From Chiua virens (lineage: Eukaryota; Basidiomycota; Agaricomycetes; Boletales; Boletaceae): DNA of 64,000 nucleotides. Location of the stretch: contig JAHNUO010000023.1 in the NCBI GenBank assembly GCA_019787685.1, positions 426,732 to 490,731 on the forward strand, in the 5' to 3' direction. Shown piece by piece: positions 395 through 51,079 of the stretch. Made by a program: the position numbers and the translations under genes. Position 1 is the first letter of the stretch, and each line of letters starts with the position of its first letter. The notes beneath the pieces are model-generated. The model worked only from the letters and a program-made list of their open reading frames with translations. It did no database searches and was not told the origin of the DNA.

Positions 395-953
395 CTGTTA
401 GAGACCGTGCGACTCGGAGGTAGCCAACTCCGGATCTCCGGAGTTGTAGCGTCGGACGGGACTTGGCTTCACCGTATGTGGTGCGCCCTTGTCACAGTCT
501 GTCCCTATATTTCGGACGTGCAGAGAACGGAGGTAGATATATGACTCAACACATAAAGTGGAGTCAAGCGGAGTAAAGACCGTCAAGGTCTTACGGAGTG
601 TTCGGAGTGAGTCGTACAATAAACTAATATTCAGACTAAGGGTACACAGTCGGGGTACTACAGTTTATATACTCGGAGTGGAATGGAGATTAGTAACGGA
701 GTTGGTAAGAACTGAGTAAGACGGAAGATCGGGAAACTACATAGCTGGAGGTAAGTCGGGTACTGAGAAAGCCGGAGCTGTGCTCATAAGCGAGACACAG
801 GTTATGTACTAAAATAAAAGAGGAGACATATGTATGTAACGGAGGTCCGGGGTCGCGGAGTTGCGTCCTGAGGGTGATCGACCTGGAGTTATCATCTAAG
901 AGAAACGGAGTTATATTCGGAGGAACGGAGAACGGAGCGGTATATGACAGATT
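395..953 (-). repeat. Putative 5' LTR of element E
   Basis: Homology between Gypsy copy 1 and copy 2 starts abruptly at about 954. The foreign sequence on the left ends TGACA on the plus strand, so an LTR read on the minus strand would begin TGTCATATACC. A candidate inner end is ...TCTAACA near 400, but no clear TGG primer binding site follows, so that end is uncertain. The block is crowded with CGGAG motifs, about 16 on the plus strand. The matching target duplication would lie outside the window. Confidence 0.45.
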
Positions 954-2884
954 CACCCATTGTCCTGGGCGGTTTTACTAATTTTCCTTCTGAACCAGAA
1001 GCCTCTTTTACTCGATACTGTTCACCCGACCCTGATCTATCTCCTCTAACAACTCTTCCTTCGTTACCGTCCTCGCATTCCTCTACCCCTTCTAAACCAT
1101 CTTCTAAATCCTCTTCCTCCGTTTCTTTATCTTCTCTACTTAACCCGTCCCCTACATCCCCTTCTCGAACCGTATCGTCACCTTCGCAACCGTCTTGTCC
1201 TACCCCACCTCTACAGAACCCGATGGCACAACAACCCTTCCAGATGCCTTTACGAGGCACACCCAATGCCCCTAAATTTGACGGAAAAATGCCGTCCGAG
1301 TTACCGCATTACCTGGAGGACATAGAATTCCTTGGCGACGCGGCTGGTCTTACCCCGATGAACAAGGTAAAAGCTGTGTTACGCTACGCGGCCCTAGATG
1401 AAGCCGAGGTCTGGCAAACCCTGCCGGAAACAACGGCCAACCCGATGGATTGGGACGCATTCGTGTCAGCGGTTAAAAAACTATACCCGGGATGTGAGGG
1501 TATGAACCGATATGGTTGCGCAGACCTCGAGTACTTGGCTCAGAAGTGTCACAGCGGGCAGATGCGTAACCAGGATGAGCTCGGGGAATATACTCGAGCA
1601 TTCCGTAAGGTCTCCTCCATATTAATTGCTAACCAAAAAATCTCAGACATCGACCGTAATGGCCTATACCTAAATGGGTTCCCACCTGAGCTACAGCGGG
1701 AGATCCGTGACCGGTTATGCATCATACTACTGGATCACCACCCTAACGACCCGTATTCCATGGATGATTCCACGAAGGCGGCCACTTTTCTCCTAACGGG
1801 TTCTACATTTCACCCGACATTCACCCCCACGCTCAGTCCCCCCCCGTTCACCTCTACATATCAACCGCCACGTCAACCAGCTCAAATACCTGCACCACCC
1901 GCATCAACGTATCGACCAACCGCACCTATTCCCTCATACTCGCCGGCCCCAACAGTGAAGGTAGAGACAAACCAAACCTCACGTACTTCGTCCGCTTGCA
2001 AGTTCTGCGGTGGACCCGGCCATTATATGCGTTCTTGCCCCATCTGCATCGAATACCTCAATACGGCGAAGGTGGTCAGAGGGTCTGATAACAAGCTCTA
2101 CATGCCGGACGGCTCTAACATCCCTCGAGCGCCGGGCGGACAATGTTTCAAGGACGGTGTCGACTACGCATGGGCTAATAGCCAACCGGTTCACCCCCCT
2201 GTCGCATCCACGTCATCCAGCAGTACTACCAGGGACTTACCCCCACATATCACGGCAGGCATTCTATCATCCGCGCATCCGGGAACACCAGCGGTCCTAG
2301 ACATCGAACTGGCCACCTTTGCACTCACGGAAACGGACGAGGAAAGCGAACCTCTATCCGTAGTAGCCGACCCAGATTTCCAGCCCTACATTGCACAGGC
2401 TTGGGCTACGTTCCAGGCAGATAAGGCGACCAAGGAAAAGGGTAAACGTGTCCGGTTTGACGGCGTATATATGCCACCTCGGAAACTAAACAGTCGGTCG
2501 GCCACGGTGTCTGAGGAGATCATCTCGCCAGAGTTACAGACCGCCAAAGAAGCTAACCACAAATCATCATCATCATCTACGCCATCACGCTCCCCACCGG
2601 CCTCATCACCCGCACCCGCATCCGCAATAGCCGGACTGTCCGGTTCTTCTTCTTTTAGTCGTGCCAATGACAATAGCAATCCTCCTTCCCGTGCAGCACA
2701 AACTAACCCTTCGTTTAACCCTACGACGCAATATAGGTACTTGTTTCCGCTCGAGGATGACTCAGCTCCACAACGAGTGTTGGACCGAGTCCTGGATACG
2801 AGCATACCCGTGCCCGTTAAAGATTTATTTGCGGTAGCACCAGAGTTCCGAAAGCAATTTTGGGACCTTACCACCACTAAATGA
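944..2884 (+). CDS. Gag polyprotein of Gypsy copy 1
   Basis: Structural protein that packages the element RNA. Residues 1-95 are Ser/Pro/Thr-rich. Residues about 105-290 form a retrotransposon gag (capsid-like) domain, running from PKFDGK through WQTLPET and LKYL-like helices to FPPELQREI. A linker rich in Pro and Thr follows. A CCHC zinc knuckle CKFCGGPGHYMRSC is at about residues 352-365 (C-x2-C-x4-H-x4-C). The tail is Ser/Pro-rich. The first nine bases of this frame belong to element E, so the true N-terminus is lost. The first internal ATG shared with copy 2 is at 1223 (MAQQPF). The final TGA at 2882 corresponds to CGA in copy 2, so gag and protease were originally one frame. Confidence 0.9.
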   Translation: MTDSPIVLGGFTNFPSEPEASFTRYCSPDPDLSPLTTLPSLPSSHSSTPSKPSSKSSSSVSLSSLLNPSPTSPSRTVSSPSQPSCPTPPLQNPMAQQPFQMPLRGTPNAPKFDGKMPSELPHYLEDIEFLGDAAGLTPMNKVKAVLRYAALDEAEVWQTLPETTANPMDWDAFVSAVKKLYPGCEGMNRYGCADLEYLAQKCHSGQMRNQDELGEYTRAFRKVSSILIANQKISDIDRNGLYLNGFPPELQREIRDRLCIILLDHHPNDPYSMDDSTKAATFLLTGSTFHPTFTPTLSPPPFTSTYQPPRQPAQIPAPPASTYRPTAPIPSYSPAPTVKVETNQTSRTSSACKFCGGPGHYMRSCPICIEYLNTAKVVRGSDNKLYMPDGSNIPRAPGGQCFKDGVDYAWANSQPVHPPVASTSSSSTTRDLPPHITAGILSSAHPGTPAVLDIELATFALTETDEESEPLSVVADPDFQPYIAQAWATFQADKATKEKGKRVRFDGVYMPPRKLNSRSATVSEEIISPELQTAKEANHKSSSSSTPSRSPPASSPAPASAIAGLSGSSSFSRANDNSNPPSRAAQTNPSFNPTTQYRYLFPLEDDSAPQRVLDRVLDTSIPVPVKDLFAVAPEFRKQFWDLTTTK

Positions 2885-3493
2885 GTAACGACTAACCTAT
2901 CCACTCAGGCTGTGCAGGTAAACGAGCTCGCGGGTCTCGACCCGTTTGCAATCGAACGCGAATACGGCGACCGGATAAACAGAAACGACGATGGACTCAT
3001 AGTGGCGCATCACAGTCTTCCCCTTCGGTCAATCGAGGCCAAGATAGGAGAATCCGGACGACCCATCCGATGCGTCTTGGACTCTGGGTCCGAGATTGTC
3101 ACGATGCCCAAACGTATCTGGGAGACACTCGGTATCCCAATTCGGTCGGATCACACGATGAATATGTCATCCGCCAACACAAGCGTTGACAAAACAGTGG
3201 GGGTACTGGAGAACCTATCCGTAGACTTTGGTACGGGCGAAGTGATGCTTCAGGTCCAGATTTTGGCCAGGGCAAACTTTGATCTATTGCTCGGACGACC
3301 GTTTCATTGTCTTATGAGTGCGACTACTGACGATTACCCGGATGGAGCACAGATGATTACGCTGTGCGACCCTAACACGGGGAAGCAATTCTCTTTGTCT
3401 ACTCGGGCGTGGACGGAAGGATGCCCCCGTTGCCGAGAAAAGAAACAGTGTAACAGCCATCAGACTGTCGTTGAAATGGACTTGGGTTTTTAG
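2885..3493 (+). CDS. Retropepsin-like protease domain of Gypsy copy 1
   Basis: Continues in the same frame as gag after a mutational TGA at 2882-2884. It carries the aspartic protease signature LDSGSEIVTMPK, with the catalytic Asp encoded near 3080, then an ILARANFDLLLGRPF segment matching the conserved ILG-type flap and core of retroviral-like proteases. A Cys/His patch CPRCREKKQC follows near the C-terminus. Its job is cleavage of the Gag-Pol precursor. It ends at a TAG (3491-3493) that is present in all three copies in the window, with pol resuming in the same frame 6 nt later. Whether it is made as a Gag-Pro fusion is inference from the intact frame in copy 2. Confidence 0.85.
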   Translation, partial: VTTNLSTQAVQVNELAGLDPFAIEREYGDRINRNDDGLIVAHHSLPLRSIEAKIGESGRPIRCVLDSGSEIVTMPKRIWETLGIPIRSDHTMNMSSANTSVDKTVGVLENLSVDFGTGEVMLQVQILARANFDLLLGRPFHCLMSATTDDYPDGAQMITLCDPNTGKQFSLSTRAWTEGCPRCREKKQCNSHQTVVEMDLGF

Positions 3494-3499
3494 CTATCG

Positions 3500-4986
3500 A
3501 TGATCCGTATACCAATCGGGGAGATTTCAATCTTCTATCCGCGTCGCATCCAGTTTCGTTTTTTTTAAAACCGTCATTCGTTTCATCTCTCTATTTCCCG
3601 ACTTCTTACACACAGCTTCCACCTCTTTCAATCGGACCAGTTCCGCCTTCGACCGATTACTCATTTTTGTCATCCACGCGTACAGACCCTAATCTGGACG
3701 TTCTTTCCGCTATCACTTCCGTTTATTCGTATGATACCATTTCGCACGCGCTGGTTTATAAACCGGTAGCACGTAAAGTTCAGTCGGTAGTTGTTCCTAC
3801 CGGGGAGGAGTTTCGTATCACGCGATCTCTGCCGGACGATCCTATCGCCGGACTGAAACCTTTACCTACTCATCCACCTGACTTTACCCCTGGACAATGT
3901 TTCACACAGGAACGCGCTGATGCTTTAGATCTTGACCCGGCTAACTGGCTATGGCCAGAAGAAGTCAAATTAATCCGATGGATCGTCCGCGAACACGAAA
4001 CGGCCTTTGCTTGGATACCGACCGAGCGGGGCCGTCTCCTCAAACAATATTTTCCCCCTGTCAAAATTCCTACCATACCTCATACGCCTTGGATACTGCG
4101 AAACATCCCAGTTCCCCCTGCAATGTGGGCTGACACGATCCAGATTATCAAGGACCGGATTGCGTCCGGTGTGTATGAACCCTCAACATCTGCCTATCGA
4201 TCGCGGTGGTTTTGCGTCCTAAAACAGGACGGTAAATCGCTACGACTCGTCCACGACTTGCAGCCGCTGAACGCAGTCACAATCCGTGACTCTTCTACCC
4301 CACCTCTTGTCGAACACTTCGCGGAATCTTTTGCCGGATATGCAGTATACGGGATGATGGACTTGTTTGCCGGATACGACCAACGTCCATTACACCCGGA
4401 TTCACGCGACCTCACCACTTTCAACAGTCCAATGGGTCCGCACCGGCTCACTACGGTACCCATGGGGTACACAAACGCAGTACAAATCTATCAGGCCGAC
4501 ATGTTGTTTATTTTGCAGGACGAGATACCTCGTTATACCTATCCATTCATAGATGATCTGCCGGTCAAAACAGTCTCGACCCGCTACCAAAATTTGGATG
4601 GCTCTTACGAAACCATTGCAGAAAATCCGGGTATTCGTCGCTTCATCTGGGAGCACCTCCTCGTAGTCCATCGCATCCTACAACGACTACAAAACGTCGG
4701 AGTAACGGTATCCGCTAAGAAATTCGTACTCGCAGCACCAGACGCGACCATAGTCGGACACAAGTGTATGGCTGATGGCCGTATCCCTCACGAGAAGAAG
4801 GTACAAAAAATCCGCGACTGGCCCGAGTGTCAGAACCTTACGCAAGTACGCGGATTCTTAGGTGTGTGCGGTGTTCTTCGAATTTTCATCAAAAATTTTG
4901 CTACGATTGCTCAACCATTGGTCAACTTGACCCGAAAGAGCGTCTCTTTCGAATGGGGAGAACCCCAGCAAATTGCTATGCTGCGT
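3500..4986 (+). pseudogene. Reverse transcriptase part of pol, copy 1 (broken)
   Basis: In copy 2 this frame starts at ATG (MIRIPIGEISIFYP). In copy 1 the ATG is at 3500, but a T run near 3560 has eight T instead of nine, so the first 20-odd codons are out of frame with the rest; the long frame reopens at 3667. RT motifs are clear: a VHDLQPLNAVTIRD segment, YGMMDLFAGYDQRPL, VPMGYTNAVQIYQ and the catalytic FIDD near 4550, then thumb and connection sequence to WGEPQQIAML. The frame is cut by LTR-A at 4987 with a 4-bp duplication gcgt. Product: RNA-dependent DNA polymerase. It is decayed only by these two lesions. Confidence 0.92.
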
Positions 4987-5601
4987 TGAAGGTAATATAT
5001 CCCGGCTGTTGTGCAATACTCAGGGGGATTGAAAGAAATAGAAAGAGGGTGAAGGAATGCGATTCCGTTCGACCCAGGGACAACACTGAGTTGGTGAACA
5101 ACGAATAATGGTTTTTGAGTAGTCCGAGATGAATCCGGGGCGAATCCGGATTAAAACGGATAGAAAAGCGGACACGGCAGTCCGATCCGGATCAAGAAAA
5201 TACGAGGAGGGCGAGGGAAAATGAACGTCGAGCGAAAACGATGTGAGACAGATGCACACGGGCAAAAGCTACTGTATTTTGTCAATACAGTGAATTTATA
5301 GTCCTCGGGAATACCCTCAGACTTGTCCTAAGTAAGGATAATAATAAAAAAAGAAGGTTTTTGTACGGTATAAAGTTCGAGAGGCACCCGAACGTCCCTG
5401 CAAGGGCTGCGTGACGTGGTCTAGCCAATGCTAAGTATGAATAAGAAGCATCGAAAATAAAATAAAAGAGTCCGAGGCAAAACGGGCGCGGATACAGCAA
5501 TCCGGATGAGTTCGCACATGCAGACAGATCAGGATCGGGATCGGGTGACGACAGGGTGCAGAAACGTGCTATGCGAGCACAGGGAATACCTATTCCCTAC
5601 A
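4987..5601 (-). repeat. Solo LTR, family LTR-A, inside pol
   Basis: Comparison with copy 2 shows exactly where pol homology breaks and resumes. The insert begins TGAAGG, ends CCTACA and is flanked by the direct repeat gcgt at 4983-4986 and 5602-5605. Read on the minus strand it starts TGTAGGGAATAGG, like LTR-C and LTR-D, which sets its orientation. It carries the shared inverted repeat at 5301-5322 beside a TATA box (TATAAAT, minus strand). No internal genes remain, so it is a solo LTR left by LTR-LTR recombination. A second, longer copy lies at 49286-50328. Confidence 0.9.
5301..5322 (-). promoter_or_regulatory. Inverted repeat next to TATA box in LTR-A
   Basis: On the minus strand GTCTGAGGG-TATT-CCCGAGGAC is followed at once by TATAAAT. 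The same arrangement recurs in LTR-C and LTR-D although the rest of the LTRs differ. It is a likely core promoter element, or a hairpin at the start of the transcript. Confidence 0.6.
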
Positions 5602-7648
5602 GCGTCTCAAGGATGCGATCTGTCACTCCCCTGCTCTTCGTCGCCTGGATTACGAATCCGGGAACGAGGTTATCCTTGCAGTGGATACGTCGTACATTGC
5701 GGTTGGCTATATCTTGTCGCAGGAAGGAGATGACGGCAAGAGGTACCCGAACCGCTTCGGTTCAATTAGTCTCACAGAGGTCGAGAGCCGCTACTCTCAG
5801 GCCAAACTGGAGCTGTACGGATTGTTCCGCGCTTTGCGAGCAGTCCGGATATTCGTGTTCGGTGTTGCAAATTTCACAGTGGAAGTCGACGCGAAATACG
5901 TTAAGGGTATGATCAATAACCCGGACCTCCAGCCCAACACGACCATTAATAGGTGGATCGCGGGCATTTTGTTATTCAATTTTCGCCTTGTTCACGTCCC
6001 TGCTACCCGACATACTGGCGCAGACGGACTCTCTCGTCGTCCACCATCCGAGAATGACCCTCCCGAAGAGGATGATTTCGAGGATTGGTTGGACCAAGCA
6101 TATTCCTTCTCTATGGCATTGTTAAACGACCGGTTGTCACCACCAGGTCGGTCTGCTCACATTAACAGACATTCCATCACACATTCCTTCCAATCTGTAT
6201 TCGTATTTGTTTCCCCTACGGCAGAACCGGCCGAACCAGAACCGGTTATCCCCCGCTCCCCCAAAGCTCTGGCAAAAGAAGCGCGCATTGATCAGATTCG
6301 CCTATTCCTCGACGACCAGGTCCGTCCTCCAGATTTGACAGATCGCAACTTCACCTCCTTCGTTAATTCCGCGACCCGGTTCTTCCTTCTAAACGGATCT
6401 CTCTATCGTCGAGAACCGCACGGCAGACACCAGTTAGTCGTGCCAAGAGAACGCCGTTACGGACTCAGTAAGGAGGCGCATGACGACCTTGGACACAAAG
6501 GCGTCTTCTCGGTTCGGACACGGTTACTGCTACGTTTCTGGTGGCCTCTGCTCATCGATGACGTCAAATGGTATACCCGTACCTGCCACGAGTGTCAAAT
6601 TCGACAGACGCAGAAGTTTCATATCCCTCCTACCGTACCAGTTATGGGCGGGCTATTTCACAAAGTCCACATCGACACGATGGTAATGCCTCGATCAGGC
6701 GGATACCGGTATATTGTACAGGCCCGATGCGCTCTTACTGCGTATCCTGAATGGCACATGTTGCGATCCGAGAATGCGTCCTCCATCGCATCTTTTATTT
6801 TCGAAGATATCCTATGCCGTTGGGGAGCCGTCTCTGAGCTCATTACGGACAACGGTCCGGCATTCGTACAGGCACTCGACAACTTGGCTACCCGATACGG
6901 TATCCACCATATCCGGATTTCCCCTTACAACTCTCAGGCGAACGGCATTGTCGAACGGCGTCATCTCGATGTCCGGGAGGCCATCGTCAAAAGTACCCTG
7001 GGAGGGGAAGTTCGCTGGCCGATGATCGCTCACTCCGTTTTCTGGGCCGAACGCGTCACTATACTCAAAGCAACCGGTCTTTCGCCGTACTTTATGGTAC
7101 ATGGTGTAGAGCCGCTTTTTCCGTTCGATTTATCAGAGGCAACATTTCTCGTTCCCGTTCCTAATGCTGACCCAGTTTCTAGTGAAAGCTTGATAGCTTG
7201 GAGAGCTCATCAGCTCCAAAAGCGTCAAACAGATATCGATTCTATCCGAGAACGCGTCTTGGCATCACGGTTTGCGTCCCTTAAAGATTTTGAGGCACGA
7301 TTCAAGAACCGGATACGGACGAAAGAGTTTAGTTCGGGTGCCCTCGTCTTGGTTCGAAATACGCGGATTGAGAAGGAGCTGAACCGGAAAACGAAGCCAC
7401 GCTACCTCGGTCCAATGGTGGTCCTTCGCAGGACTACTGGAGGATCGTATCTGCTAGCCAAGTTGGACGGCGCCATTTCGAAACTGAGGTATGCGGCGTT
7501 TCGCTTGCTACCTTACTTTCCATGGACGAAAATCACTATTCCGGTTACTGAACTGACCGGAATAGGCGACGAGGAATACGACCACTCTGATGCTGAGGAA
7601 GATGTCGAGTACGAAGATGAAGGCGAGGGCGATGTCTCGCAAGACTAG
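5602..7648 (+). CDS. RNase H and integrase part of pol, copy 1
   Basis: Pol resumes after the LTR-A insertion. RNase H: Asp in AVDTSYIAVGY, Glu in KLELYGL and Asp in VEVDAKYVKG, ending near the conserved HTGADGLSRR. Integrase: an HHCC zinc domain (KEAHDDLGHKG, then CHEC), and a DDE core with Asp in VHIDTMV, Asp in ITDNGPAF and Glu in GIVERRHLD. A GPY/F-like segment KPRYLGPMVVLRR follows, then an acidic tail rich in Glu and Asp ending GDVSQD. I see no chromodomain. The protein removes the RNA strand and inserts the cDNA. It ends at TAG 7646-7648 and converges with the antisense gene downstream. No further lesion is visible in this part. Confidence 0.92.
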
Positions 7649-8270: not shown

Positions 8271-9524
8271 TCAAGACATTCCAAACGCCAGCTTTACCCT
8301 ATCCAGTTCTCCCTGCTGCGAAGCGACGTACGATTCCATGGCCGAAGCACGGGCCTGAAGCTCCTTGAAGAAGGACCTGGTCGACAGGAACTTCGCCTCT
8401 AGAGAGAGAATAGCACGTCGGATATCGTCCGCCCCATCGTAAGGCTCAGACGGCGAGCCAGTCTTAGACTTCTTCTTGGGCGACTCTACTTCTTCCCCCC
8501 CATCTTGAAAAGGGAGTGGAGACACGGGCTTGGACTCATAGAAGAGCAGCTCGGGCGCATCCGGTGTCGGAGGAGACGCAGGTGAAGGATCGACCACGGC
8601 CTTGCGAGCCGGGATGGTAACCGTGATAACGGGTAACGCTACGAAAAGGATCAGCCGAGTTGATGCGATTCGAGGAGAGAGGTCCTACCTGCAGCCTTGG
8701 CCTTTGGATCCGCTAGTTTCCACTTCTCAACCGACAGCCCACTCTTAGCACCCCGACCACTTGACTTGTTGCACCGAGCCTTGGCTTTGAAGCAAGGATC
8801 ACAAGTGCGACCCGGAATCCCTGCGCACAACTTACTAGTCCGAGTGCACATCTCGCACGCTGGGTCGTGAACCATACGATCTGGAATTTTAAGCGGACCC
8901 TTGACTACCACCTCCTCCTCCTCGTCACACGGGCTCTCGTCCATAGCGGCCTTACGAGCGGACCGCTGAAAAGAACCGTTAACAGAGCGAAACATCTGAG
9001 GTAACAGCGGTCTCACCTTGCGCTTTCTGCCAGCCTCGACCTCGACGGTCTTGCCTGTCTCCGCGACCGAATCACCCAGAAGCGAAGCGGATCCGAACGA
9101 CCCACCCCCCGTTACCTTGCCTGAGGCGGTTCGTTGTCTCTGAGCGTCCACGCGTTGAGCTACTTCCCCCTGCCATCTACGAAAAAACGTGGTTGCTTCG
9201 CGCATCGTCTTCACCATCTCGTCACTGAGGCGGCAGGAAACGCCGTGCGATTTAGCCTGGCTAAGGGCGGTATTTAGATGCTCCTACAAGTCCGGTTAAT
9301 ACCCGACCAACCCTAAGAAACTCGCGAAGTACCAAAGCCCGTTGCCACTCCTGGCACCATCCCTCCTGTTCTTCTTGCAGCTCCTCCTTATCATCCGGCA
9401 CCGCCAGCGCCACAGCCGCAATCCGATCCTTTCCTTGTGCGAGGTCCTTCTCAACCTTGACAGTCGCCTCATCAACGGGAGAGTCTGCGAATGCAAGGAT
9501 GGAGTCGAGGGACGTAAGAGACAT
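8271..9524 (-). CDS. Antisense Zn2Cys6-like gene inside the Gypsy element
   Basis: I read three exons on the minus strand: 9524-9333, 9283-8689 and 8638-8271. They are joined across introns of 49 nt (GTACTT...TATTAAC...TAG) and 50 nt (GTAGGA...CTGAT...TAG). Together they give 385 codons including the stop. The start ATG at 9524 has a CACC context. The N-terminus is acidic and helical. Exon 2 holds CEMCTRTSKLC then CDPCFKAKARC, i.e. C-x2-C-x6-C-x7-C-x2-C-x6-C, which fits the spacing of Zn(II)2Cys6 DNA-binding clusters. Exon 3 has a basic SPKKKSKT motif and a coiled coil from about RAILSLEAKF onward. A nuclear DNA-binding role is inference. The gene sits antisense between integrase and 3' LTR in both long copies. 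Confidence 0.75.
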
Positions 9525-9641
9525 GGTGACGAGTAGCGAAGCGGGAGGGGAGTAAACTTGTCGAAAGAACGGACGGCCAACGCGAGGCTTTAATGCGCGG
9601 CCGATCCCAGTCACCGGTTCAAGGTCAGCGTTCGCGGGTGT

Positions 9642-9667
9642 CACGTGACTGACTGAGGACAGTCAGT
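9642..9667. promoter_or_regulatory. E-box and inverted repeat ahead of the 3' LTR
   Basis: CACGTG (9642-9647) is followed directly by the perfect inverted repeat ACTGACTG-AGGA-CAGTCAGT (9648-9667). It lies about 120 nt upstream of the antisense gene start and 19 nt before the 3' LTR. The same block is kept in copy 2 near 38196-38221. It may serve the antisense promoter. No polypurine tract is visible immediately before the LTR. Confidence 0.5.
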
Positions 9668-9685
9668 ATTCAAGTCCTTGTCGGG

Positions 9686-10569
9686 TGTAGGAGTCAATGA
9701 TCCCTTGAGGTGATAAACCCGTGTTCCCGCTTTGTTTACAGGATGCCCGGATTGCCCATATCGATTGTCCTACCTGTCCGTCGTGGTCCCGTGTCCATCC
9801 GAGTGGATCCAACCCATATTCATATGTTTTGTTCTTCGTTCCTACACGTTTTCGCGCAAGGTGACCGAATCGGGTTGCTCAATCGGGATCGCACGACGTA
9901 CACTAATCAACTCTCTTTTGTCCAATTTCTATTTTATTTCATACCTTCTTAGATTTTTTTTAGACGGTTCTGTGTTATCGACACATATCCGATTGGTTAT
10001 AAGGAACGGATAGTCGGGTCGTACGACGTTTTAAAGGTAGTCCATTGATTCACGGATCAAACCTTATCCCACCTTGACAGAACATTGTTTTCCTTTTCAC
10101 GGGTCGATCTCCATGAGAGTTGGCTCCGTATACGTACGCTTCCCTTATTTATTCGATACTTTATCCGCTGTAAAAGTCCCGGGGAATACCTGAGACTATA
10201 AAATTTGTGTTCATAAATAAAAATTTCATCTTTCGATCCCCGTTTTCTCTCGCGTTCTAAGTCGCCTCGCCCGTTTAACTATCTTTTCTATCCGCCCTTA
10301 CTCGTACTCGATCACCGTTGTGCTCGAGTCTCTGCCTTGTCGCCGAACTATCCGACTGTCCGCGTTTCGGCCGGTTTTGTCGACCTTTGTACAGTTTCAC
10401 CCGGGAACGCGTCCGGATTGCTTTCAAAGCTCCTGTCAACGCCTTGACACTTCGTCTCCAACCTCAGAACCCCTTGGGACGAGTCATACTCGCGCCCATC
10501 CCTTTTCTTTCTATCTGACAGTTCTACTAACCCTGTTCCTGTCACACCAGCCCGTTCTTTATTTCTTCA
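9686..10569 (+). repeat. 3' LTR of Gypsy copy 1 (LTR-D)
   Basis: Begins TGTAGGAGTCAATG and ends TTTCTTCA. The boundaries are fixed by alignment with the two LTRs of copy 2 (37292-38177 and 47230-48116), where homology stops at the same bases. It carries a TATA box TATAAAAT at 10197. The LTR is the promoter and terminator of the element. The next four bases are acgc, consistent with the NCGN target pattern of this group; the left duplicate cannot be checked. Confidence 0.9.
10176..10204 (+). promoter_or_regulatory. Inverted repeat plus TATA box in LTR-D
   Basis: GTCCCGGG-GAATA-CCTGAGAC (10176-10196) abuts TATAAAAT. It is equivalent to the elements in LTR-A and LTR-C and is the probable core promoter of the retrotransposon. 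Confidence 0.6.
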
Positions 10570-33896: not shown

Positions 33897-33962
33897 GCGC
33901 CACCATTCAGAGCGACTCTGGCATATACTGGCCAGCTGGCAAGAGTCTCAGATGACCCCGTG
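33897..33962 (+). pseudogene. FunK1 relic, last codons after the LTR insertion
   Basis: With the LTR and one gcgc copy removed, the frame of 31898-32451 continues through SDSGIYWPAGKSLR to a TGA near 33953. This is the tail of the kinase relic. Confidence 0.45.
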
Positions 33963-37291: not shown

Positions 37292-38177
37292 TGAAGAAAT
37301 AAAGAACGGGCTGGTGTGACAGGAACAGGGTTAGTAGAACTGTCAGATAGAAAGAAAAGGGATGGGCGCGAGTATGACTCGTCCCAAGGGGTTCTGAGGT
37401 TGGAGACGAAGTGTCAAGGCGTTGACAGGAGCTTTGAAAGCAATCCGGACGCGTTCCCAGGTGAAACCGTACGAAGGTTGACAAAACCGGCCGAAACGCG
37501 GACAGTCGGATAGTTCGGCGACAAGGCAGAGACTCGAGCACAACGGTGATTGAGTACGAGTAAGGGTGGATAGAAAAGATAGTTAAATGGGCGAGGTGAC
37601 TTAGAATGCGAGAGAAAACGGGGATCCAAAGATAAAGTTTTTATTTACGAACACAAATTTTATAGTCTCAGGTATTCCCCGGGACTTTTACAGCGGATAA
37701 AGTATCAAATAAATAAGGAAGGCGTACGTATACGGAGCCAACTCTCATGGAGATCGACCCATGAAAAGGAAAACAATGTTCTGTCAAGATGGGATAAGGT
37801 TTGATCCGTGAATCAATGGACTACCTTTAAAACGTCGTACGACCTGACTATCTGTTCCTTATAACCAATCGGATACGTGTCGATAACATGGAACCATCTA
37901 AAAAAATATCTAAGAAGGTACGAAATAAAATAGAACTTGGACAAAAAGAGAGTTGATTAGTGTACGTCGTGCGATCCCGATCGAGCAACCTGATTCGGTC
38001 ACCTCGCGCGAAAACGTGTAAGAACAAAGAACAAAACATACGAATATGGGTTGGATCCACTCGGATGGACACGGGACCACGACGGACAGGTAGGACAATC
38101 GATATGGGCAATCCGGGCATCCTGTAAACAAAGCGGGAACACGGGTTTATCACCTCAAGGGGTCATTGACTCCTACA
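37292..38177 (-). repeat. 3' LTR of Gypsy copy 2 (LTR-D)
   Basis: Plus strand runs TGAAGAAATAAAG to ACTCCTACA. Nearly identical to 47230-48116. The antisense gene starts 162 nt beyond its inner end. Confidence 0.93.
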
Positions 38178-38338
38178 CCCGACAAGGACTTGAATACTGA
38201 CTGTCCTCAGTCAGTCACGTGACACCCGCGAACGCTGACCTTGAACCGGTGACTTGGATCGGCCGCACATTAAAGCCTCGCGTTGGCCGTCCGTTCTTTC
38301 GACAAGTTTACTCTCCTCCCGCTTCGCTACTTGTCACC

Positions 38339-39590
38339 ATGTTTCTTACATCCCTCGACTCCATCCTTGCATTCGCAGACTCTCCCGTCAATGAGGCGAC
38401 TGTCAAGGTTGAGAAGGACCTCACACAAGGAAAGGATCGGATTGCGGCTGTGGCGCTGGCGGTGCCGGATGATAAGGAGGAGCTGCAAGAAGAACAGGAG
38501 GGATAGTGCCAGGAGTGGCAACGGGCTTTGGTACTTCGCGAATTTCTTAGGGTTGGTCGGGTATTAACCGGACTTGTAGGAGCATCTAAATACCGCCCTT
38601 AGCCAGGCTAAATCGCACGGCGTTTCCTGCCACCTCAGCGACGAGACGGTGAAGATGATGCACGAAGCAACCACATTTTTTCATAGATGGCAGGGGGAAG
38701 TAGCTCAACGCGCGGATGCTCAGAGACAACAAACCGCCTCAGGCAAGGCAACGGGGGGTGGGTCGTTTGGATCCGCTTCGCTTCTGGGTGATTCGGTCGC
38801 GAGGACAGGCAAGACCGTTGAGGTCGAGGCTGGCAGGAAGCACAAGGTGAGACTGCTGTTACCTCAGATGTTTCGCTCTGTTAACGGTTCTTTTCAGCGG
38901 TCTGCTCGTAAGGCCGCTATGGATGAGAGCCCGTGTGACAAGGAGGAGGAGGTGGTAGTCGAGGGTCCGCTTAAAATTCCAGATCGTATGGTTCACGACC
39001 CGGCGTGCGAGATGTGCGCTCGGACTAGTAAGTTGTGCGCGGGGATTCCAGGTCGCACTTGTGATCCTTGCTTCAAAGCCAAGGCCCGGTGCAACAAGTC
39101 AAGTGGTCGGGGTGCTAAGAGTGGGCCGTCGGTTGAGAAGTGGAAACTAGCGGATCTGAAGGCCAAGGCTGCAGGTAGGACCTCTCTCCTCGGATCACAT
39201 CAACTTGGCTGATCTTTTTCGTAGCGTTACCCGTTATCGGTTACCATCCCGGCTCGCAAGGCCATGGTCGATCCTTCACCCGTGTCTCCTCCGACACCGG
39301 ATGCGCCCGAGCCACTCTTCTACGAGTCCAAGCCTGTGTCTCCACTCCCTTTTCAAGATGGGGGGGAAGAAGTAGAGTCGCCCAAGAAGAAGTCTAAGAC
39401 TGGCTCGCCGTCTGAGCCTTACGATGGGGCGGACGATATCCAACGTGCTATGCTCTCTCTAGAGGCGAAGTTCCTGTCGACCAGGTCCTTCTTCAAGGAG
39501 CTTCAGGCCTGTGCTTCGGCCATGGAATCGTATGTCGCTTCGCAGCAGGGGGAACTGGATAGGGTAAAGCTGGTGTTTGGAATGTCTTGA
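38339..39590 (+). pseudogene. Antisense Zn2Cys6-like gene, copy 2
   Basis: Same three-exon layout as 8271-9524: exons 38339-38530, 38580-39174 and 39225-39590, with introns of 49 and 50 nt at the same places. The start ATG at 38339 is in the same TCACC context. The six Cys are all kept (CEMCARTSKLC, CDPCFKAKARC). Lesions: TGG-to-TAG in exon 1 (38504-38506) and loss of 2 nt near 39236 in exon 3 that shifts the frame before the coiled coil. It is antisense to pol. Conservation of splice sites and Cys positions in a second copy supports a real gene. Confidence 0.75.
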
Positions 39591-40212
39591 GTCGTTTCCA
39601 GCCCGTCCCTACTTGTATGATAGTGTATAGTCGATATCCGTATCCGTGTCCGTGTCTGTGCCCATGTCCGAGTGAGATCCCTAAGTACGAAAACAAGGAT
39701 TAGAAGGGTAACAAAACGATACGAATGAAAAGAGATCTGAATGAATGACACCTGAGCGCGGGGTTCCGCCTGTCTTGTTTTCTTCGGTCATCTATCGCGT
39801 CTTTGCCTGCTTTTGTAGCCTTTATCGTCTATATCGGTCGAAAGCAGATTGGTAAAACTACCACCGGGTCAAAACGTGCGTGTGCCCCATCACGCGTTCG
39901 AAGACGAAAATCTAGGTATTAGTTCATTGGGGCAGGAGGGGAAATGGATAGATGTCTGTTTTTCTGTTTTTCTGGTTTTTTCTTATCTACGGTTTTTAGA
40001 TCTTTTCGGTCTGACTGAGCGAGAAAGCGGAGGATGTGAGTGAGTGAAGTTCTATGGGGTCTCGTAAGACTTTATTATTGGCTCGGATATCATTTTTCTT
40101 TGAAATCAAGTACACCGGACGAAACCCGGGGTGAAATAGAGGGCACTGGACTAAACCCAGGATAGAATAAATACGTATCAGGCGGTATAAGGGGGGCGGT
40201 AACGACAGAAGG
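39591..40212. other. Spacer between antisense gene and pol, copy 2
   Basis: Counterpart of 7649-8270. It contains the GGACAC/GGATAT-type satellite near 39640-39670 and no supported gene. Confidence 0.6.
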
Positions 40213-41976
40213 CTAGTCTTGCGAGACATCGCCCTCGTCTTCATCTTTGCACTTGACATCTTCCTCAGCATCAGAGTGGTCATATTCCTCATCGCCTATT
40301 CCGGTCAGTTCAGTAACCGGAATAGTGATTTTCGTCCATGGAAAGTAAGGTAGCAAGCGAAACGCCGCATACCTCAGTTTCGAAATGGCGCTGTCCAACT
40401 CGGCTAGCAGATACAATCCTCCAGTAGTCCTGCAAAGGACCACCATTGGACTGAGGTAGCGTGGCTTCATTTTCCAGTTCAGCTCCTTCTCAATCCGCGT
40501 ATTTCGAACCAAGACTAGGTCACCCGAACTAAACTCTTTCGTCCGTATCCGGTTCTTGAATCGCGCCTCAAAATCTTTAAGGGACGCAAACCGTGATGCC
40601 AAGACGCGTTCTCGGATAGAATCGATATCTGTTTGACGCTTTTGGAGCTGAGGAGCTCTCCAAGCTATCAAGCTTTCGCTAGAAACTGGGTCAGCATTAG
40701 GAACGGGAACGAGAAATGTTGCCTCTGATAAATCGAACGGAAAAAGTGGCTTGACACCATGTACCATAAAGTACGGCAAAAGACCGGTTGTTTTGAGTAT
40801 AGTGACGCGGTCAGCCCAGAAAACGGAGTGAGCGATTGTCGGCCAGCGAACTTCCCCTCCCAGGGTACTTTTTACGATGGCCTCCCGGACATCAAGATGA
40901 CGCCGTTCGACAATGCTGTTCGCCTGAGAGTTGTAAGGGGAAATCCGGATATGGTGGATACCGTATTGGGTAGCCAAGTTGTCGAGTGCCTGTACGAATG
41001 CCGGACCGTTGTCCGTAATGAGCTCAGAGACGGCTCCCCAACGGCATAGGATATCTTCAAAAATAAAAGATGCGATGGAGGACGCATTCTTGGATCGCAA
41101 CATGCGCCATTCAGGATACACAGTAAGAGCGCATCGGGCCTGTACAATATACCGGTATCTGCCTGATCGAGGCATTACCATCGTGTCGATGTGGACTTTG
41201 TGAAATAGCCCGCCCATAACTGGTACAGTAGGAGGGATATGAAACTTCTGCGTCTGTCGAATTTGACACTCGTGGCAGGTACGGGTATACCATTTGACGT
41301 CATTGATGAGCAGAGGCCACCAGAAACGTAGCAGTAACCGTGTCCGAACCGAGAAGACGCCTTTGTGTCCAAGGTTGTCATGCGCCTCCTTAATGAGTCC
41401 GTAATGGCGTTCTCTTGGCACGACTAACTGGTGTCTGCCATGTGGTTCTCGACGATAGAGAGATCCGTTTAGAAGGAAGAACCGGGTCGCGGAATTAACG
41501 AAGGAGGTGAAGTTGCGATCTGTCATATCCGGAGGACGGACCCGGTCATCGAGGAATAGGCGAATCTGATCAATGCGCGCTTCTTTTGCCAGAGCTTTGG
41601 GGGAGCGGGGGATAACCGGTTCTGGTTCTGCCGGTTCTGCCGTAGGAGAAACAAATATGGATATGGATTGGAAGGAATGTGTGATGGAATGTCTGTTAAT
41701 GTGAGCAAACCGACCCGGTGGTGGCAACCAGTCGTTTAACAATGCCATAGAGAAGGAATATGCTTGGTCCAACCAATCCTCGAAATCATCCTCTTCAGGA
41801 GGGTCATTCTCAGATGGTGGACGACGAGAGAGTCCGTCTGTGCCAGTATGTTGGGTAGCAGGGACGTGAACGAGGCGAAAATTGAATAACAAAATGCCTG
41901 CGATCCACCTATTAATGGTCGCGTTGGGCTGGAGGTCCAGGTTATTGATCATACCTTTAACGTATTTTGCGTCGAC
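40213..41976 (-). pseudogene. RNase H C-terminus and integrase, copy 2
   Basis: Continues pol after the LTR-B insertion, from KYVKGMINN through the RNase H end. Integrase has KEAHDNLGHKG and CHEC, then Asp in VHIDTMV, Asp in ITDNGPAF and Glu in SIVERRHLD. The frame is open to the stop at 40213 and closely matches copy 1, including the acidic tail ending GDVSQD. On its own the DDE core looks complete. It is separated from the RT part by 733 bp of foreign LTR. Confidence 0.9.
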
Positions 41977-42709
41977 TGTTATGATAGTTCCAGGTAGGAC
42001 CTAGCGTAGCCGCAAAAGCGCCAAGTACCAAGTGGCTGCGATAACTCAAACAACCACCACTTGATACGTGGTGCGCTGAAGAGTTGAACGAGGGATTCTG
42101 GTCAGCTGATTGCTACCAGAGAGACGAGTGAAGACTCAGGCATTGCTGAGAATTGTCCGGTTGGGAATCTATACCCGAGGGACGGTCGAGGGTCAAGGGT
42201 TGACTACGATGAGTCCAAGTGGTGTGTCAAGGGACGATGAGAGAAGTCCCTGGTCAAGTGGTCACAGGCGCTGTGGCGAGTGGAGCAGAGATACTCAGCT
42301 AGTATTGCGGAGATCAAGACTAGAGTACAGGAGTATCGCTGCGGGGTATTTATACTACAAGAACTGCGCACGGACCAAGTAACTAAAAGGGGGTGGCCAG
42401 AAGAGCGGAAGGGGTAAAGGGCCAAAAGGAGTGTGCAGTAATCAAAAGGGGAAATCGTACGATGCGATGGCAGCGGACGATGACGAAGACGAAATGACAA
42501 ATGCGAAGCCATCGGATGATGACGAGAATGGAATGAGTAAGCGCGATGCCATCGGATGATGACGAGAAGAGAAAAACGTAAGCATCCGGGTAATGCCGGT
42601 GCGGAGTTACAAGAGTGAAAGAAAACAAGTACGGATGAACGTACAAAGATACCTAGGTATCAAGTGTAGGGAAGAAGTACAAGTGAAGTGAAAGAAAGAA
42701 ATTGTAACA
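41977..42709. repeat. Solo LTR-B inside pol of copy 2
   Basis: Starts TGTTATGATAG, ends TTGTAACA. Perfect 5-bp duplication tcgac at 41972-41976 and 42710-42714. It breaks the RNase H coding sequence after VEVD. Confidence 0.95.
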
Positions 42710-44481
42710 TCGACTTCCACTGTGAAATTGGCAACACCGAACACGAATATCCGGACTGCTCGCAAAGCGCAGAACAATCCGTACAGCTCCAATTTGGCCT
42801 GAGAGTAGCGGCTCTCGACCTCTGTGAGACTAATTGAACCGAAGCGGTTCGGGTACCTCTTGCCGTCATCTCCTTCCTGCAACAAGATATAGCCAACCGC
42901 GATGTATGACGTATCCACTGCAAGGATAACCTTGTTCCCGGATTCGTAATCCAGGCGACGAAGAGCAGGGGAGTGACAGATCGCATCCTTGAGATGCAGC
43001 ATAGCAATTTGTTGGGGTTCTCCCCATTCAAATGAGACGCTCTTTCGGGTCAAGTTGACCAACGGTCGAGCAATCGTAGCAAAATTTTTGATGAAAATTC
43101 GAAGAACACCGCACACACCTAAGAATCCACATACTTGCGTAAGGTTCTGACACTCGGGCCAGTCGCGGATTTTTTGTACCTTCTTCTCGTGAGGGATACG
43201 GCCATCAGCCGTACACTTGTGTCCGACTATGGTCGCGTCTGGTGCTGCGAGTACGAATTTCTTAGCGGATACCATTACTCCGACGTTTTGTAGTCATTGT
43301 AGGATGCGATGGACTACGAGGAGGTGCTCCCAGATGAAGCGATGAATACCCGGATTTTCTGCGATGGTTTTGTAAGAGCCATCCGAATTTTGGTAGCGGG
43401 TCGAGACTGTTTTGACTGGCAGATCATCTATGAATGGATAGGTATAACGAGGTATCTCGTCCTGCAAAATAAATGACATGTCAGCCTGATAGATTTGTAC
43501 CGCATTTGTGTACCCCATGGGTACCGTAGTGAGCCGGTGCAGACCCATTGGACTGTTGAAAGTGGTGAGGTCGTGTGAATCTGGGTGTAATGGACGTTGG
43601 TCATATCCGGCAAACAAGTCCATCATCCCGTATACTGCATATCCGGCAAAAGATTCCGCGAAGTGTTCGACGAGGGGTGGGGTAGAAGAGTTGCGGATTG
43701 TGACTGCGTTCAGCGGCTGCAAGTCGTGGACGAGTCGTAGCGATTTACCGTCCTGTTTTATGACGCAAAACCACCGCGATCGATAGGCAGATGTCGAGGG
43801 TTCATACACACCGGACGCAATCCGGTCCTTGATAATCTGGATCGTGTCAGCCCACATTGCAGGGGGAACTGGGATGTTTCACAGTATCCAAGGCGTATGA
43901 GGTATGGTAGGAATTTTGACAGGGGGAAAATATTGTTCGAGGAGACAGCCCTGCTTGGTCGGTATCCAAGCAAAGGCCGTTTCGTGTTCGCGGACGATCC
44001 ATCGGATTAATTTGACTTCTTCTGGCCATAGCCAGTTAGCCAGGTCAAGATCTAAAGCATCAGCGCGTTCCTGTGTGAAACGTTGTCCAGGGGTAAAGTC
44101 GGGTGGATGAGTAGGTAAAGGTTTCAGTCCGGCAATAGGATCGTCTGGCAGAGATCGTGTGATACGAAACTCCTCCCCGGTAGGAACAACTACCGACCGA
44201 ACTTTACGTGCTACCGGTTTATAAACCAGCGCGTGCGAAATGGTATCATACGAATAAATGGAAGTGATAGCAGAAAGAACGTCTGGATTAGGGTCTGTAC
44301 GCGTGGATGACAAAAATGAGTAATCGGTCGAAGGCGGGACTGGTCCGATCGAAAGAGGTGGAAGCTGTGTGTAAGAAGTCGGGAAATAGAGAGATGAAAC
44401 GAATGACGGTTTTAAAAAAAAACGAAACCAGATGCGACGCGGATAGAAGATTGAAATCTCCCCGATTGGTATACGGATCAT
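42710..44481 (-). pseudogene. RT and RNase H N-terminus, copy 2
   Basis: Starts at ATG 44481 (MIRIPIGEISIFYP), in the same frame as gag-pro and just after the conserved TAG. The T run has nine T, giving the intact early reading frame that copy 1 has lost. RT motifs match copy 1 (YGMMDLFAGYDQRPL, VPMGYTNAVQIYQ, FIDD). In-frame TGA codons near 43878 and 43293 stand where copy 1 has CGA. It ends in RNase H at VEVD, where LTR-B is inserted. Confidence 0.9.
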
Positions 44482-44487
44482 CGATAG

Positions 44488-47199
44488 CTAAAAACCCAAG
44501 TCCATTTCGACAACAGTCTGATGGCTGTTACACTGTTTCTTTTCTCGGCAATGGGGGCATCCTTCCGTCCACGCCCGAGTAGACAAAGAGAATTGCTTCC
44601 CCGTGTTAGGGTTGCGCAGCGTAATCATCTGTGCTCCATCCGGGTAATCATCAGTAGTTGCACTCATAAGACAATGAAACGGTCTTCTGAGCAATAGATC
44701 AAAGTTTGCCCTGGCCAGAATCTGGACCTGAAGCATCACTTCGCCCGTACCAAAGTCTACGGATAGGTTCTCCAGTACCCCCACTGTTTTGTCAACGCTT
44801 GTGTTGGCGGATGACATATTCATCGTGTGATCCGACCGAATTGGGATACCAAGTGTCTCCCAGATACGTTTGGGCATCGCGACAATCTCGGACCCAGAGT
44901 CCAAGACGCATCAGATGGGTCATCCGGATTCTCCTATCTTGGCCTCGATTGACCGAAGGGGAAGACTGTGATGCGCCACTATGAGTCCGTCGTCGTTTCT
45001 GTTTATCCGGTCGCCGTATTCGCGTTCGATTGCAAACGGGTCGAGACCCGCGAGCTCGTTTACCTGCACAGCCTGAGTGGATAGGTTAGTCATTACTCGT
45101 TTAGTGGTGGTAAGGTCCCAAAATTGCTTTCAGAACTCTGGTGCTACCGCAAATAAATCTTTAACAGGCACGGGTATGCTCGTATCCAGGACTCGGTCCA
45201 ACACTCGTTGTGGAGCTGAGTCATCCTCGAGCGGAAACAAGTACCTATATTGCGTCGTAGGATTAAACGAAGGGTTAGTTTGTGCTGCACGGGAAGGAGG
45301 ATTGCTATTGTCGTTGGCACAACTAAAAGAAGAAGAACCGGACGGTCCGGCTATTGCAGATGCGGGTGCGGGTGACGAGGCCGGTGGGGAGCGTGATGGC
45401 GTAGATGAAGATGATGATTTGGGGTTAGCTTCTTTGGCGGTCTGTAACTCTGGTGAGATGATCTCCTCAGACACCGTGGCCGACCGACTGTTTAGTTTCC
45501 GAGGTGGCATATATACGCTGTCAAACCGGACACGTTTACCCTTTTCCTTGGTTGCCTTATCTGCCTGGAACGTAGCCCAAGCCTGTGCAATGTAGGGCTG
45601 GAAATCCGGGTCGGCTACTACGGATAGAGGTTCGCTTTCCTCGTCCGTTTCTGTGAGTGCAAAGGCAGCCGGTTCGATGTCTAGGACCACTGGTGTTCCC
45701 GGATGCGTGGATGATAGAATGCCTGCCGTGATATGTGGGGGTAAGTCCCTGGTAGTACTGCTGGATGACGTGGATGCGACAGGGGGGTGAACCGGTTGGC
45801 TATTAGCCCATGCGTAGTTGACACCGTCCTTGAAACATTGTCCGCCCGGCGCTCGAGGGATGTTAGAGCCGTCCGGCATGTAGAGCTTGTTATCAGACCC
45901 TCTGACCACCTTCGCCGTATTGAGGTATTCGATGCAGATGGGGCAAGAACGCATATAATGGCCGGGTCCACCGCAGAACTTGCAAGCGGACAAAGTAGGT
46001 GAGGTTTGGTTTGTCTCTACCTTCACTGTAGGAGCCGGTGAGTATGAGGGAATAGGTGCGGTTGGTCGATACGTTGATGCGGGTGGTGCAGGTATTTGAG
46101 CTGGTTGACGTGGCGGTTGATATGTAGAGGTGAACGGGGGGGGACTGAGCGTGGGGGTGAATGTTGGGCAAAATGTAGAACCCATTAGGAGAAAAGTGGC
46201 CACCTTCGTGGAATCATCCATGGAATACGGGTCGTTAGGGTGGTGATCCGGTAGTATGATACGTAACCGGTCACGGATCTCCCGCTGTAGCTCAGGTGGG
46301 AACATGTTTAGGTATAGGCCATTACGGTCGATGTCTGAGATTTTTTGGTTAGCAATTCATACGGAAGAGACCTTACGGAATGCTCGAGTATATTCCCCGA
46401 GCTCATCCTGGTTACGCATCTGCCCGCCGTGACACTTCTGAGCCAAGTACTCGAGGTCTGCGCGACCATATCGGTTCGTACCCTCACATCCGGGGTATAG
46501 TTTTTTAACTGCTGACATGAATGCGTCCCAATCCATCGGGTTGGCCATTGTTTCCGGCAGGGTTTGCCAGACCTCAGCTTCATCTAGGGCCACGTAGCGT
46601 AACACAGCTTTTACCTTGTTCGTCGGGGTAAGACCAGCCGCGTCGCCAAGGAATTCTATGTCCTCCAGGTAACGTGGTAACTCGGACGGCGTTTTTCCGT
46701 CAAATTTAGGGGCATTGGGTGTGCCTCGTAAAGGCATCTGGAAGGGTTGTTGCGCCATCGGGTTCTGTGGAGGTGGGGTAGGACAAGACGGTTGCGAAGG
46801 TGACGATACGGTTCGAGAAGGGGATGTAGGGGACGGGTTAAGTAGAGAAGATAAAGAAACGGACGAAGAGGATTTAGAAGATGGTGTAGAAGGGGTAGAG
46901 GAATGCAAGGACGGTAACGAAGGAAGAGTCGTTAGAGGAGATAGATCAGGGTCGGGTGAACGGTGTCGAGTAAAAGAGGCTTCCGGTTCAGAAGGAAAAT
47001 TAGTAAAACCGCCCGGGACAACAGGTGAATTGGGTGAATGTAGTGTGAAGGAGTCAATGCGGTTATGCCGCACTCTATCCGGGGTAACCGAAGTAAAAAG
47101 CTCGGTATTGGCAGAGATATCCGGATTTCTAAGACTTGAGAGTAGCTCGTCTACCTCTAGTCGCTCTGGTGTAGGCCTGAGCGATCTCGTCCTGACAAC
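44488..47199 (-). pseudogene. Gag-protease, copy 2
   Basis: Open from 47199 except for a few TGA codons: near 46362 in the gag domain, 45130 at the gag end, and two just before the protease DSG near 44905-44925. Each has CGA or another sense codon in copy 1. Gag and protease are one frame here because the codon that is TGA in copy 1 is CGA. Zinc knuckle CKFCGGPGHYMRSC and LDSGSEIVAMPK are present. No in-frame ATG occurs before 46758 (MAQQPF), although the upstream sequence looks coding. That implies a lost start, a spliced leader or initiation at 46758. It ends at TAG 44490-44488. Confidence 0.88.
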
Positions 47200-47210
47200 C
47201 TAAAAGAACC

Positions 47211-47227
47211 CCTCGCGGTGGGCTCCA
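47211..47227 (-). promoter_or_regulatory. Primer binding site of Gypsy copy 2
   Basis: Two bases inside the 5' LTR the minus strand reads TGGAGCCCACCGCGAGG. This starts with TGG and so would pair with a tRNA 3' end ...GGTGGGCTCCA. The unusual discriminator T would suit tRNA-Cys, but that is a guess. The same primer site follows LTR-C at 59356. Confidence 0.75.
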
Positions 47228-47229
47228 GT

Positions 47230-48116
47230 TGAAGAAATAAAGAACGGGCTGGTGTGACAGGAACAGGGTTAGTAGAACTGTCAGATAGAAAGAAAAGGGA
47301 TGGGCGCGAGTATGACTCGTCCCAAGGGGTTCTGAGGTTGGAGACGAAGTGTCAAGGCGTTGACAGGAGCTTTGAAAGCAATCCGGACGCGTTCCCAGGT
47401 GAAACCGTACGAAGGTTGACAAAACCGGCCGAAACGCGGACAGTCAGATAGTTCGGCGACAAGGCAGAGACTCGAGCACAACGGTGATCGAGTACGAGTA
47501 AGGGCGGATAGAAAAGATAGTTAAATGGGCGAGGCAACTTAGAACGTGAGAGAAAACGGGGATCCAAAGATAAAGTTTTTATTTACGAACACAAATTTTA
47601 TAGTCTCAGGTATTCCCCGGGACTTTTACAGCGGATAAAGTATCAAATAAATAAGGAAGGCGTACGTATACGGAGCCGACTCTCATGGAGATCGACCCGT
47701 GAAAAGGAAAACAATGTTCTGTCAAGATGGGATAAGGTTTGATCCGTGAATCAATGGACTACCTTTAAAATGTCGTACGACCTGACTATCCGTTCCTTAT
47801 AACCAATCGGATACATGTCGATAACATGGAACCGTCTAAAAAAAATATCTAAGAAGGTACGAAATAAAATAGAACTTGGACAAAAAGAGAGTTGATTAGT
47901 GTACGTCGTGCGATCCCGATCAAGCAACCCGATTCGGTCACCTCGCGTGAAAACATGTAAGAACGAAGAACAAAACATATGAATATGGGTTGGATCCACT
48001 CGGATGGACATGGGACCACGACGGACAGGTAGGACAATCGATATGGGCAATCTGGGTGTCCTGTAAACAAAGCGGGAACACGGGTTTATCACCTCAAGGG
48101 GTCATTGACTCCCACA
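47230..48116 (-). repeat. 5' LTR of Gypsy copy 2 (LTR-D)
   Basis: 887 bp, starting TGTGGGAGTCAATG on the minus strand. It drives transcription leftward. The inverted repeat plus TATA box lie near 47601-47630. It differs from the 3' LTR by a small number of mostly C/T or G/A changes. Confidence 0.93.
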
Positions 48117-50717: not shown

Positions 50718-51079
50718 GTACCCGGTTGGTACATTTGATTCACAATGGACATATTATTGGGCAACTACTGCAACTTGTTTACCTCTTCCTCTCTCAAACA
50801 AACTATGTATATGTCTAGATTTCTATATTCAAAGTAAAGTATTCAATACTCAGTGCTGTGGCATGCTATGAGTTCACAGCTTTCAAAGTCATTCATGTCT
50901 CTTTTATACACCACACTTGCATCCTTACTGTCCCTATCACCCACCTATTGTCTTTGATCTGAATTGCAGTCAATGACAATGCAAGGGAACAAGGCTTTTC
51001 CAGGCTTTATTGACACAACCACTTCTTGGCCCACCATCACCCCTCCTGCAAGACCACGAAATGTGCTGCAGGAATTAAC

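Follow-up and report, generated by a model that had tools for sequence, protein, structure and literature searches.

What role does a gene play that lies inside a retrotransposon, is interrupted by introns, and is encoded on the strand opposite to the reading frames of the element? This question is raised by a locus of the fungus Chiua virens, contained in the stretch of 64,000 nucleotides that we analysed (hereafter, the window), where a Gypsy element of a family that we designate F1 bears such a gene at 9524..8271 of the minus strand. A previous sequence-only reading of the window had located the gene between the integrase and the 3' LTR, on the opposite strand, and copy 1 of the element confirms this place; that reading had extended the gene to 9685, of which 8271..9524 is the gene proper and 9525-9685 is upstream sequence reaching the LTR edge. 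The coordinates of the features discussed are compiled in Table 1.

Table 1. Position of the features of F1 copies 1 and 2 in the window, with their strand and the observations associated with each.
Feature	Position	Strand	Remarks
gag-like (DUF4100, zinc knuckle), protease and RT frames of copy 1	878..4989	+	homology to copy 2 starts at 951
RNase H and integrase frame of copy 1	5549..7648	+	PF17919, PF17921, PF17917, PF00665
Exon 4, including stop	8271..8638	-	stop ends at 8271
C-terminal helix	8286..8435	-	predicted; ~50 residues, coiled-coil-like
PKKKSK basic motif	8463..8480	-	corresponding basic run is KKK/KKQ in F2, RKKQ in L071
Intron 3	8639..8688	-	50 nt; F2 intron at matching place, phase 1
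Exon 3	8689..8965	-	contains the Cys cluster
Six-Cys cluster, C-x2-C-x6-C-x7-C-x2-C-x6-C	8771..8857	-	residues 190-218
Intron 2 (very likely)	8966..9016	-	51 nt, in frame; absent from the sequence-only reading
Exon 2	9017..9283	-	residues 65-153
Intron 1	9284..9332	-	49 nt, GT..AG; branch-like TTAAC 16 nt from its end; F2 intron at matching codon, phase 0
Exon 1	9333..9524	-	ATG at 9524; residues 1-64; exon end and phase same in F2
Inverted-repeat block adjoining the 3' LTR	9640..9685	+	within 2 mismatches in 25/26 F1 copies; common to F2
3' LTR of copy 1	9686..10569	+	TGTAGGAG...TTTCTTCA
Copy 2, complete element	37292..48116	-	LTRs 97.2% identical
Antisense gene of copy 2	~38341..39590	+	stop and frameshift

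F1 displays the Gypsy order, with LTRs, primer-binding site, protease, RT, RNase H and then integrase; the RT of copy 1 reaches 28.5 bits, slightly below the cut-off of 29.6. We interpret the flanks of copy 2, GCAT and GCGT, as a target duplication of 4 bp in which one base has changed. The similarity of copy 1 to copy 2 begins only at 951, and a primer-binding site in the right orientation is found ~3.56 kb to the left of the window, so an insertion at about 950 in copy 1 is likely. The antisense gene had been attributed to both long copies, and it does sit at the corresponding place in copy 2, but it is broken there by a stop at codon 56 and the loss of 2 nt in the last exon.

The window holds other repeated sequences. 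A third piece of the F1 gag-pol part, diverged (86-90%), lies at 20567-23862. Two inverted repeats of 891 nt, 100% complementary and 5 kb apart (51835-52725 and 57772-58662), each hold a 202-aa DDE_3 transposase frame (52085-52693 being the one scanned), and a Tc1/mariner-type frame lies between them at 53553-54650. A 408-aa minus-strand frame at 59635-60861 matches the PIF1-like helicase family PF05970 (E 4.9e-68) and is presumably of the kind found in Helitrons, while diverged repeats of 100-570 nt, both direct and inverted, form a cluster shared among 30826-35762, 51078-51462 and 58656-59281.

The structure first proposed for the gene in copy 1 comprised three exons and a product of 384 aa. 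We reproduced its two introns of 49 and 50 nt (9332-9284 and 8688-8639) and its open frame, but a model of four exons, with introns of 49, 51 and 50 nt and a product of 367 aa, is better. The stretch 9016-8966 is very likely an additional intron, because at the same codon a second element family, F2, described below, has 56 nt bounded by GT..AG, which put the frame out of register and contain a stop in the three copies that were read through (3/3). The 51-nt intron of copy 1 is in frame, so its retention leaves the frame open. Each of the six F1 and F2 introns has one branch-like motif, 16-27 nt from the intron end. The proposal that introns survive in such an element since they are antisense to its genomic RNA is sound logic.

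The gene is repeated in the host genome. A DNA search of its 48,285,464 bases (136 contigs) gave at least 43 matches, at least 26 of them near full length and 80-100% identical, both counts being lower bounds. Among these 26 copies, an integrase match lies on the opposite strand in 24, at 464-1348 nt past the 3' end of the gene, and the LTR edge is at the expected upstream place, with at most 2 mismatches, in 25. The ATG start is kept in all of them and the GT..AG borders in 76 of 78 introns, and the spliced frame is open in 10. Most of the divergence between copies is C-to-T decay at CpG, which affects 17-23% of CpG cells (C-to-T or its mirror) versus at most 4.6% elsewhere.

A protein search with exons 2-3 returned the F1 copies together with weak matches of 35-47% identity over the Cys cluster. 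Four of the six weak-match loci read (L069 and L072-L074, read in part, each with gag-like and antisense ORFs) belong to the second family, F2, which has the same antisense gene. One F2 copy, L075, was read from end to end. It measures 5,722 bp and has two identical LTRs of 707 nt, a 4-bp target duplication (ACGG), the same primer-binding site as F1, and a single sense ORF encoding 658 aa, the N-part of which shows 48% identity to F1 gag over 203 aa. A profile scan of the complete element detected no Pfam pol domain. As judged from this copy, F2 thus consists of LTRs, a gag relative and the antisense gene, without pol. The gene of L075 is intact and encodes 372 aa, and the identity of the LTRs indicates that this copy moved recently, gene included. 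Intact genes were found in two (L074 and L075) of the six F2 copies read (L069, L072-L075 and L077); L077, which was considered as a deeper subfamily, proved to be a decayed F2 copy. Of 75 tblastn rows in the host genome, 33 span at least 95 of the 97 residues of F2 exon 3, with identities of 68-100%. The name TR-GAG is given to non-autonomous LTR elements in which gag is retained; F2 resembles them in its LTRs, primer-binding site, gag-related ORF and lack of pol (one complete copy, L075), and differs from them by the extra spliced antisense gene.

The F1 and F2 products match with an E of 4e-34 and 27% identity (BLAST), and share 29.9% of residues over 351 aligned codons, against a shuffled baseline of 7.2%. 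Third bases of same-box four-fold codons are identical in 17 of 53 cases in the gene and in 15 of 49 in the N-part of gag, so synonymous sites are near random, or saturated, while the protein has been held, which indicates purifying selection on the product, as in gag. The positions and phases (0, 0, 1) of the three introns agree 3/3, in a comparison in which exon 1 of L072 did not align. The gene is both real and old.

Selection had also been proposed as a check among copies, by dN/dS, and within F1 the signal appears weaker and mixed compared with that between families. Variants present in at least two copies outside CpG give an omega of 0.42 (28 N, 24 S; p 0.0019 versus the expected share), while all variants including CpG give 0.86 (p 0.13) and singletons 0.87 (p 0.27); a Fisher test of shared against singleton counts gives p 0.12. 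On small counts, the wrong-frame controls for shared variants outside CpG gave values between 0.69 and 4.32; misalignment of copies spoilt the pol control. Diversity in F1 is 0.066, 0.077 and 0.106 at the three codon positions, 0.094-0.098 in the flanks and 0.091-0.130 in the introns. The view that 3' non-coding sequence holds this frame by chance has nothing in its favour beyond the weak all-site omega within F1; it is refuted by the shared introns of F1 and F2 and by the homology of their products along the whole length, and we consider it next to impossible. An explanation in which the antisense RNA matters, through double-stranded RNA and silencing, and the protein does not, is very improbable: such a role of antisense transcripts is discussed for plant elements in a passage of PMC7264820, but double-stranded RNA requires neither conservation at the protein level nor conserved introns.

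With respect to the kind of protein encoded, the six Cys with the spacing previously described are present in the product of copy 1, as is the PKKKSK motif, which we take to be nuclear-signal-like. The product also agrees with the wider spacing C-x2-C-x6-C-x5,12-C-x2-C-x6,8-C. All six Cys are invariant among F1, F2 and a single-copy relative, L071, with a G-x-P-x-R between them, and the pattern appeared in 0 of 200,000 shuffles of the 367-aa F1 product and in 0 of 200,000 of the F2 product. The spacing and the invariant Cys with G-x-P-x-R argue for a zinc cluster. A coiled coil had been proposed after the basic motif, and a single-sequence prediction does place a coiled-coil-like helix there (exon 4 residues 68-117, block pLDDT 86-93), preceded by a loose basic linker; for exon 3 and its Cys cluster the model predicts two short helices at low confidence (mean pLDDT 45.1).

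The Cys spacing, the basic motif and the helix after the cluster are thus as in Zn2Cys6 factors (PF00172), the layout that the sequence-only reading had seen in the product, but the profile does not sustain membership of that family. F1 gives no match to PF00172 at E up to 10, F2 reaches 9.0 bits versus a cut-off of 21, and L071 gives no match, while the same model scores above its cut-off at 27 places elsewhere in this genome. The first half of the PROSITE-type Zn2Cys6 residue pattern, in the form in which we recall it, is also unmatched by the product, and no Pfam family exceeds its cut-off for the F1 or the F2 product. The product therefore probably resembles a small nuclear protein with a zinc cluster, a basic stretch and a coil, outside the Zn2Cys6 family.

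In a PDB profile search, ribosomal protein L9 was rejected as a relative, its weak matches running through the helix only. Searches of a protein collection, each of which scored only the ~8,000 candidates sharing most words, found no relatives of the product at E up to 0.001 (single sequence) or 0.1 (alignment). This absence is a weak one, because acidic and lysine-rich words may crowd the list and gene callers easily miss intron-bearing genes. A pol search of the same collection found 1437 relatives, so Agaricomycete sequences are present there (the sources include Leucocoprinus, Candolleomyces, Hypsizygus, Pleurotus, Rhodofomes and Sparassis). In the viral contigs and prokaryote genome contigs scanned, no relative of the product or of pol was confirmed.

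L071 (C4:1688138-1688662) is related to the cluster and helix part, lacks intron 3 and shows 26-27% identity over ~180 residues (E about 5e-10). By inspection, no gag or pol frame was noticed in the surrounding 5 kb, and it lies outside any recognised element; it could be a donor, an offspring or a remnant of the gene. A more distant protein, L070, has two such clusters (41% over 54 residues) and may belong to a family of cluster-related host proteins. The frame with the tandem pair of six-Cys clusters occupies 1201-1731 of L070 and has no Pfam match. The existence of L071 outside an element, together with the read-through capture known for retroelements (as mentioned in part of PMC7264820), would suit a host gene carried as a passenger and useless to the element. 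This explanation is largely refuted by a protein conserved across two families at near-random synonymous sites, and it also has to face the fact that F2 kept the gene after the loss of pol; we regard it as highly improbable. The gene probably serves the elements themselves.

At least 105 integrase rows were found in the genome, and at least 12 of these, 50-54% identical to F1, define a sister family. Among these 12 loci, no gene match was found within 5 kb when the match lists were compared by eye. In the sister copy that was read, L076, the stop of pol ends at 152 and is followed at 201 by an LTR-like TGTAAGG, probably the LTR start; between the two lies an inverted repeat resembling that of F1, and no Cys-cluster frame occurs in the 4 kb read. 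As to whether the gene always sits antisense in this Gypsy clade, this holds for most near-full F1 copies and for F2, but not for the sister copy. On the simplest reading, the gene was acquired, between pol and the block beside the LTR, prior to the split of F1 and F2; a loss in the sister family would be the less simple alternative.

The inverted-repeat block at the LTR side has a variant in the sister family, which is without the gene, and we read it as a putative cis element of the retrotransposon; it was dropped as a candidate antisense promoter, since the gene-less family has it too. In the genome, 68 sites match the 16-nt complement of the primer-binding site of F1 and F2 (33 forward, 35 reverse; reversed control 0). 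Some of them lie ~5-6 kb from sister-family integrases, so a common tRNA primer for F1, F2 and the sister family is possible. Apart from their ends and 68 bp of promoter sequence at 70.6%, the F1 and F2 LTRs have little in common. Both F2 LTRs contain an 11-bp tandem array, CGGATTGGACT, in 4.5 copies (L075 1259-1305 and 6274-6320), and an inverted repeat precedes TATAAAA in the F2 LTR and, in part, in F1. The array and this inverted repeat as protein targets are ideas only, chosen after inspection of the sequence.

A regulatory role of the product is plausible. Our best reading, held at middling confidence, is that the gene encodes a nuclear regulator of its own element family that binds the DNA of its own LTR and sets transcription. 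In this mechanism, the accessory gene would have a promoter of its own on the antisense strand adjoining the 3' LTR, and its transcript would be spliced by the host and translated to a nuclear protein composed of an acidic, helical N-terminal part, a six-Cys cluster binding zinc, a nuclear signal of basic residues and a C-terminal helix through which it pairs; this protein would bind the LTR DNA of its family and set element transcription up or down. The gene would have been gained (or lost in the sister) as intron-bearing DNA, and retained when F2 lost pol.

An LTR-specific regulator is favoured because F2 borrows pol yet keeps the gene, with a product only 30% identical to that of F1 and LTRs that are little alike: a general helper could be borrowed like pol, while a regulator of one LTR could not, which we infer to point to regulation. 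More tentatively, a DNA-binding regulator tuned to each family's own LTR might be the part that an element cannot borrow; it is likewise only a possible course of events that F2, under such tuning, dropped pol and kept gag and the regulator, which then drifted to 30% identity along with the LTR.

The same retention of just gag and this gene, and a basic motif and Cys cluster that suit general nucleic-acid binding, could instead reflect a protein acting after transcription, in nuclear entry, target-site choice, or RNA packaging or chaperoning with Gag. This is rather unlikely: F2 must borrow pol, so that a general helper would be borrowable too, and the sister family, without the gene in the copy read, has the same class of primer-binding-site sequence. 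Less likely still is a self-limiting repressor, in which the antisense protein or transcript would lower sense transcription and thereby control copy number. The antisense place adjoining the 3' LTR fits it, and Ty1-type copy control, an analogy for a self-limiting element, and HBZ of HTLV offer parallels; selfish copies would easily lose a pure repressor, yet the frame is intact in L075, the F2 copy whose identical LTRs mark it as recent.

HBZ of HTLV-1 is a spliced gene whose product is of the bZIP type. It is described in part of PMC11963269 as an antisense gene near the 3' LTR that encodes a nuclear protein and regulator. The likeness to the F1 product would be one of working only, with no homology claimed; the F1 product has a six-Cys cluster in place of a bZIP.

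Antisense accessory genes of plant retrotransposons have been noted, with function unknown, and regulation has been suggested by likening them to retroviral antisense genes such as HBZ (passages of PMC7264820 and PMC11963269). According to the same passages, the plant genes have the same place and antisense orientation as that of F1 and are kept in most copies, their proteins are suspected of a nuclear or DNA-binding role, and some non-autonomous members carry them, as F2 does (PMC11963269, PMC7264820). The gene described here differs in its fungal host, its six-Cys cluster and its three conserved introns, the word 'intron' being absent from the main text of both papers (PMC11963269, PMC7264820). 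Plant Retand proteins carry TRP28 (PF04195), for which profile scans gave no match in the F1 and F2 products.

It had been supposed that no fungal case was known. However, an antisense gene, brtn, is in print for the Boty-like elements of Botrytis cinerea, on the title of Zhao et al. 2011 as cited in PMC8365987, where the Boty-like element is named BcGypsy1; by that title, it is likewise an extra antisense gene of a fungal LTR element. Antisense genes of retroelements are thus already known, from plants and from one fungal case, brtn, and what is new is the spliced fungal form with a Cys cluster, of which a limited literature search found no other example in a fungus.

These results present two fungal families, one autonomous and the other reduced to gag and this gene, with selection at the protein level on an antisense gene, and a gene-less sister family that provides a natural comparison, so that the purpose of antisense genes becomes a testable question in a small genome. 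If the reading of an LTR-tuned regulator is true, it would be an independently arisen fungal counterpart of the antisense regulators of complex retroviruses, and its introns would have been kept as splicing sees the antisense strand only.
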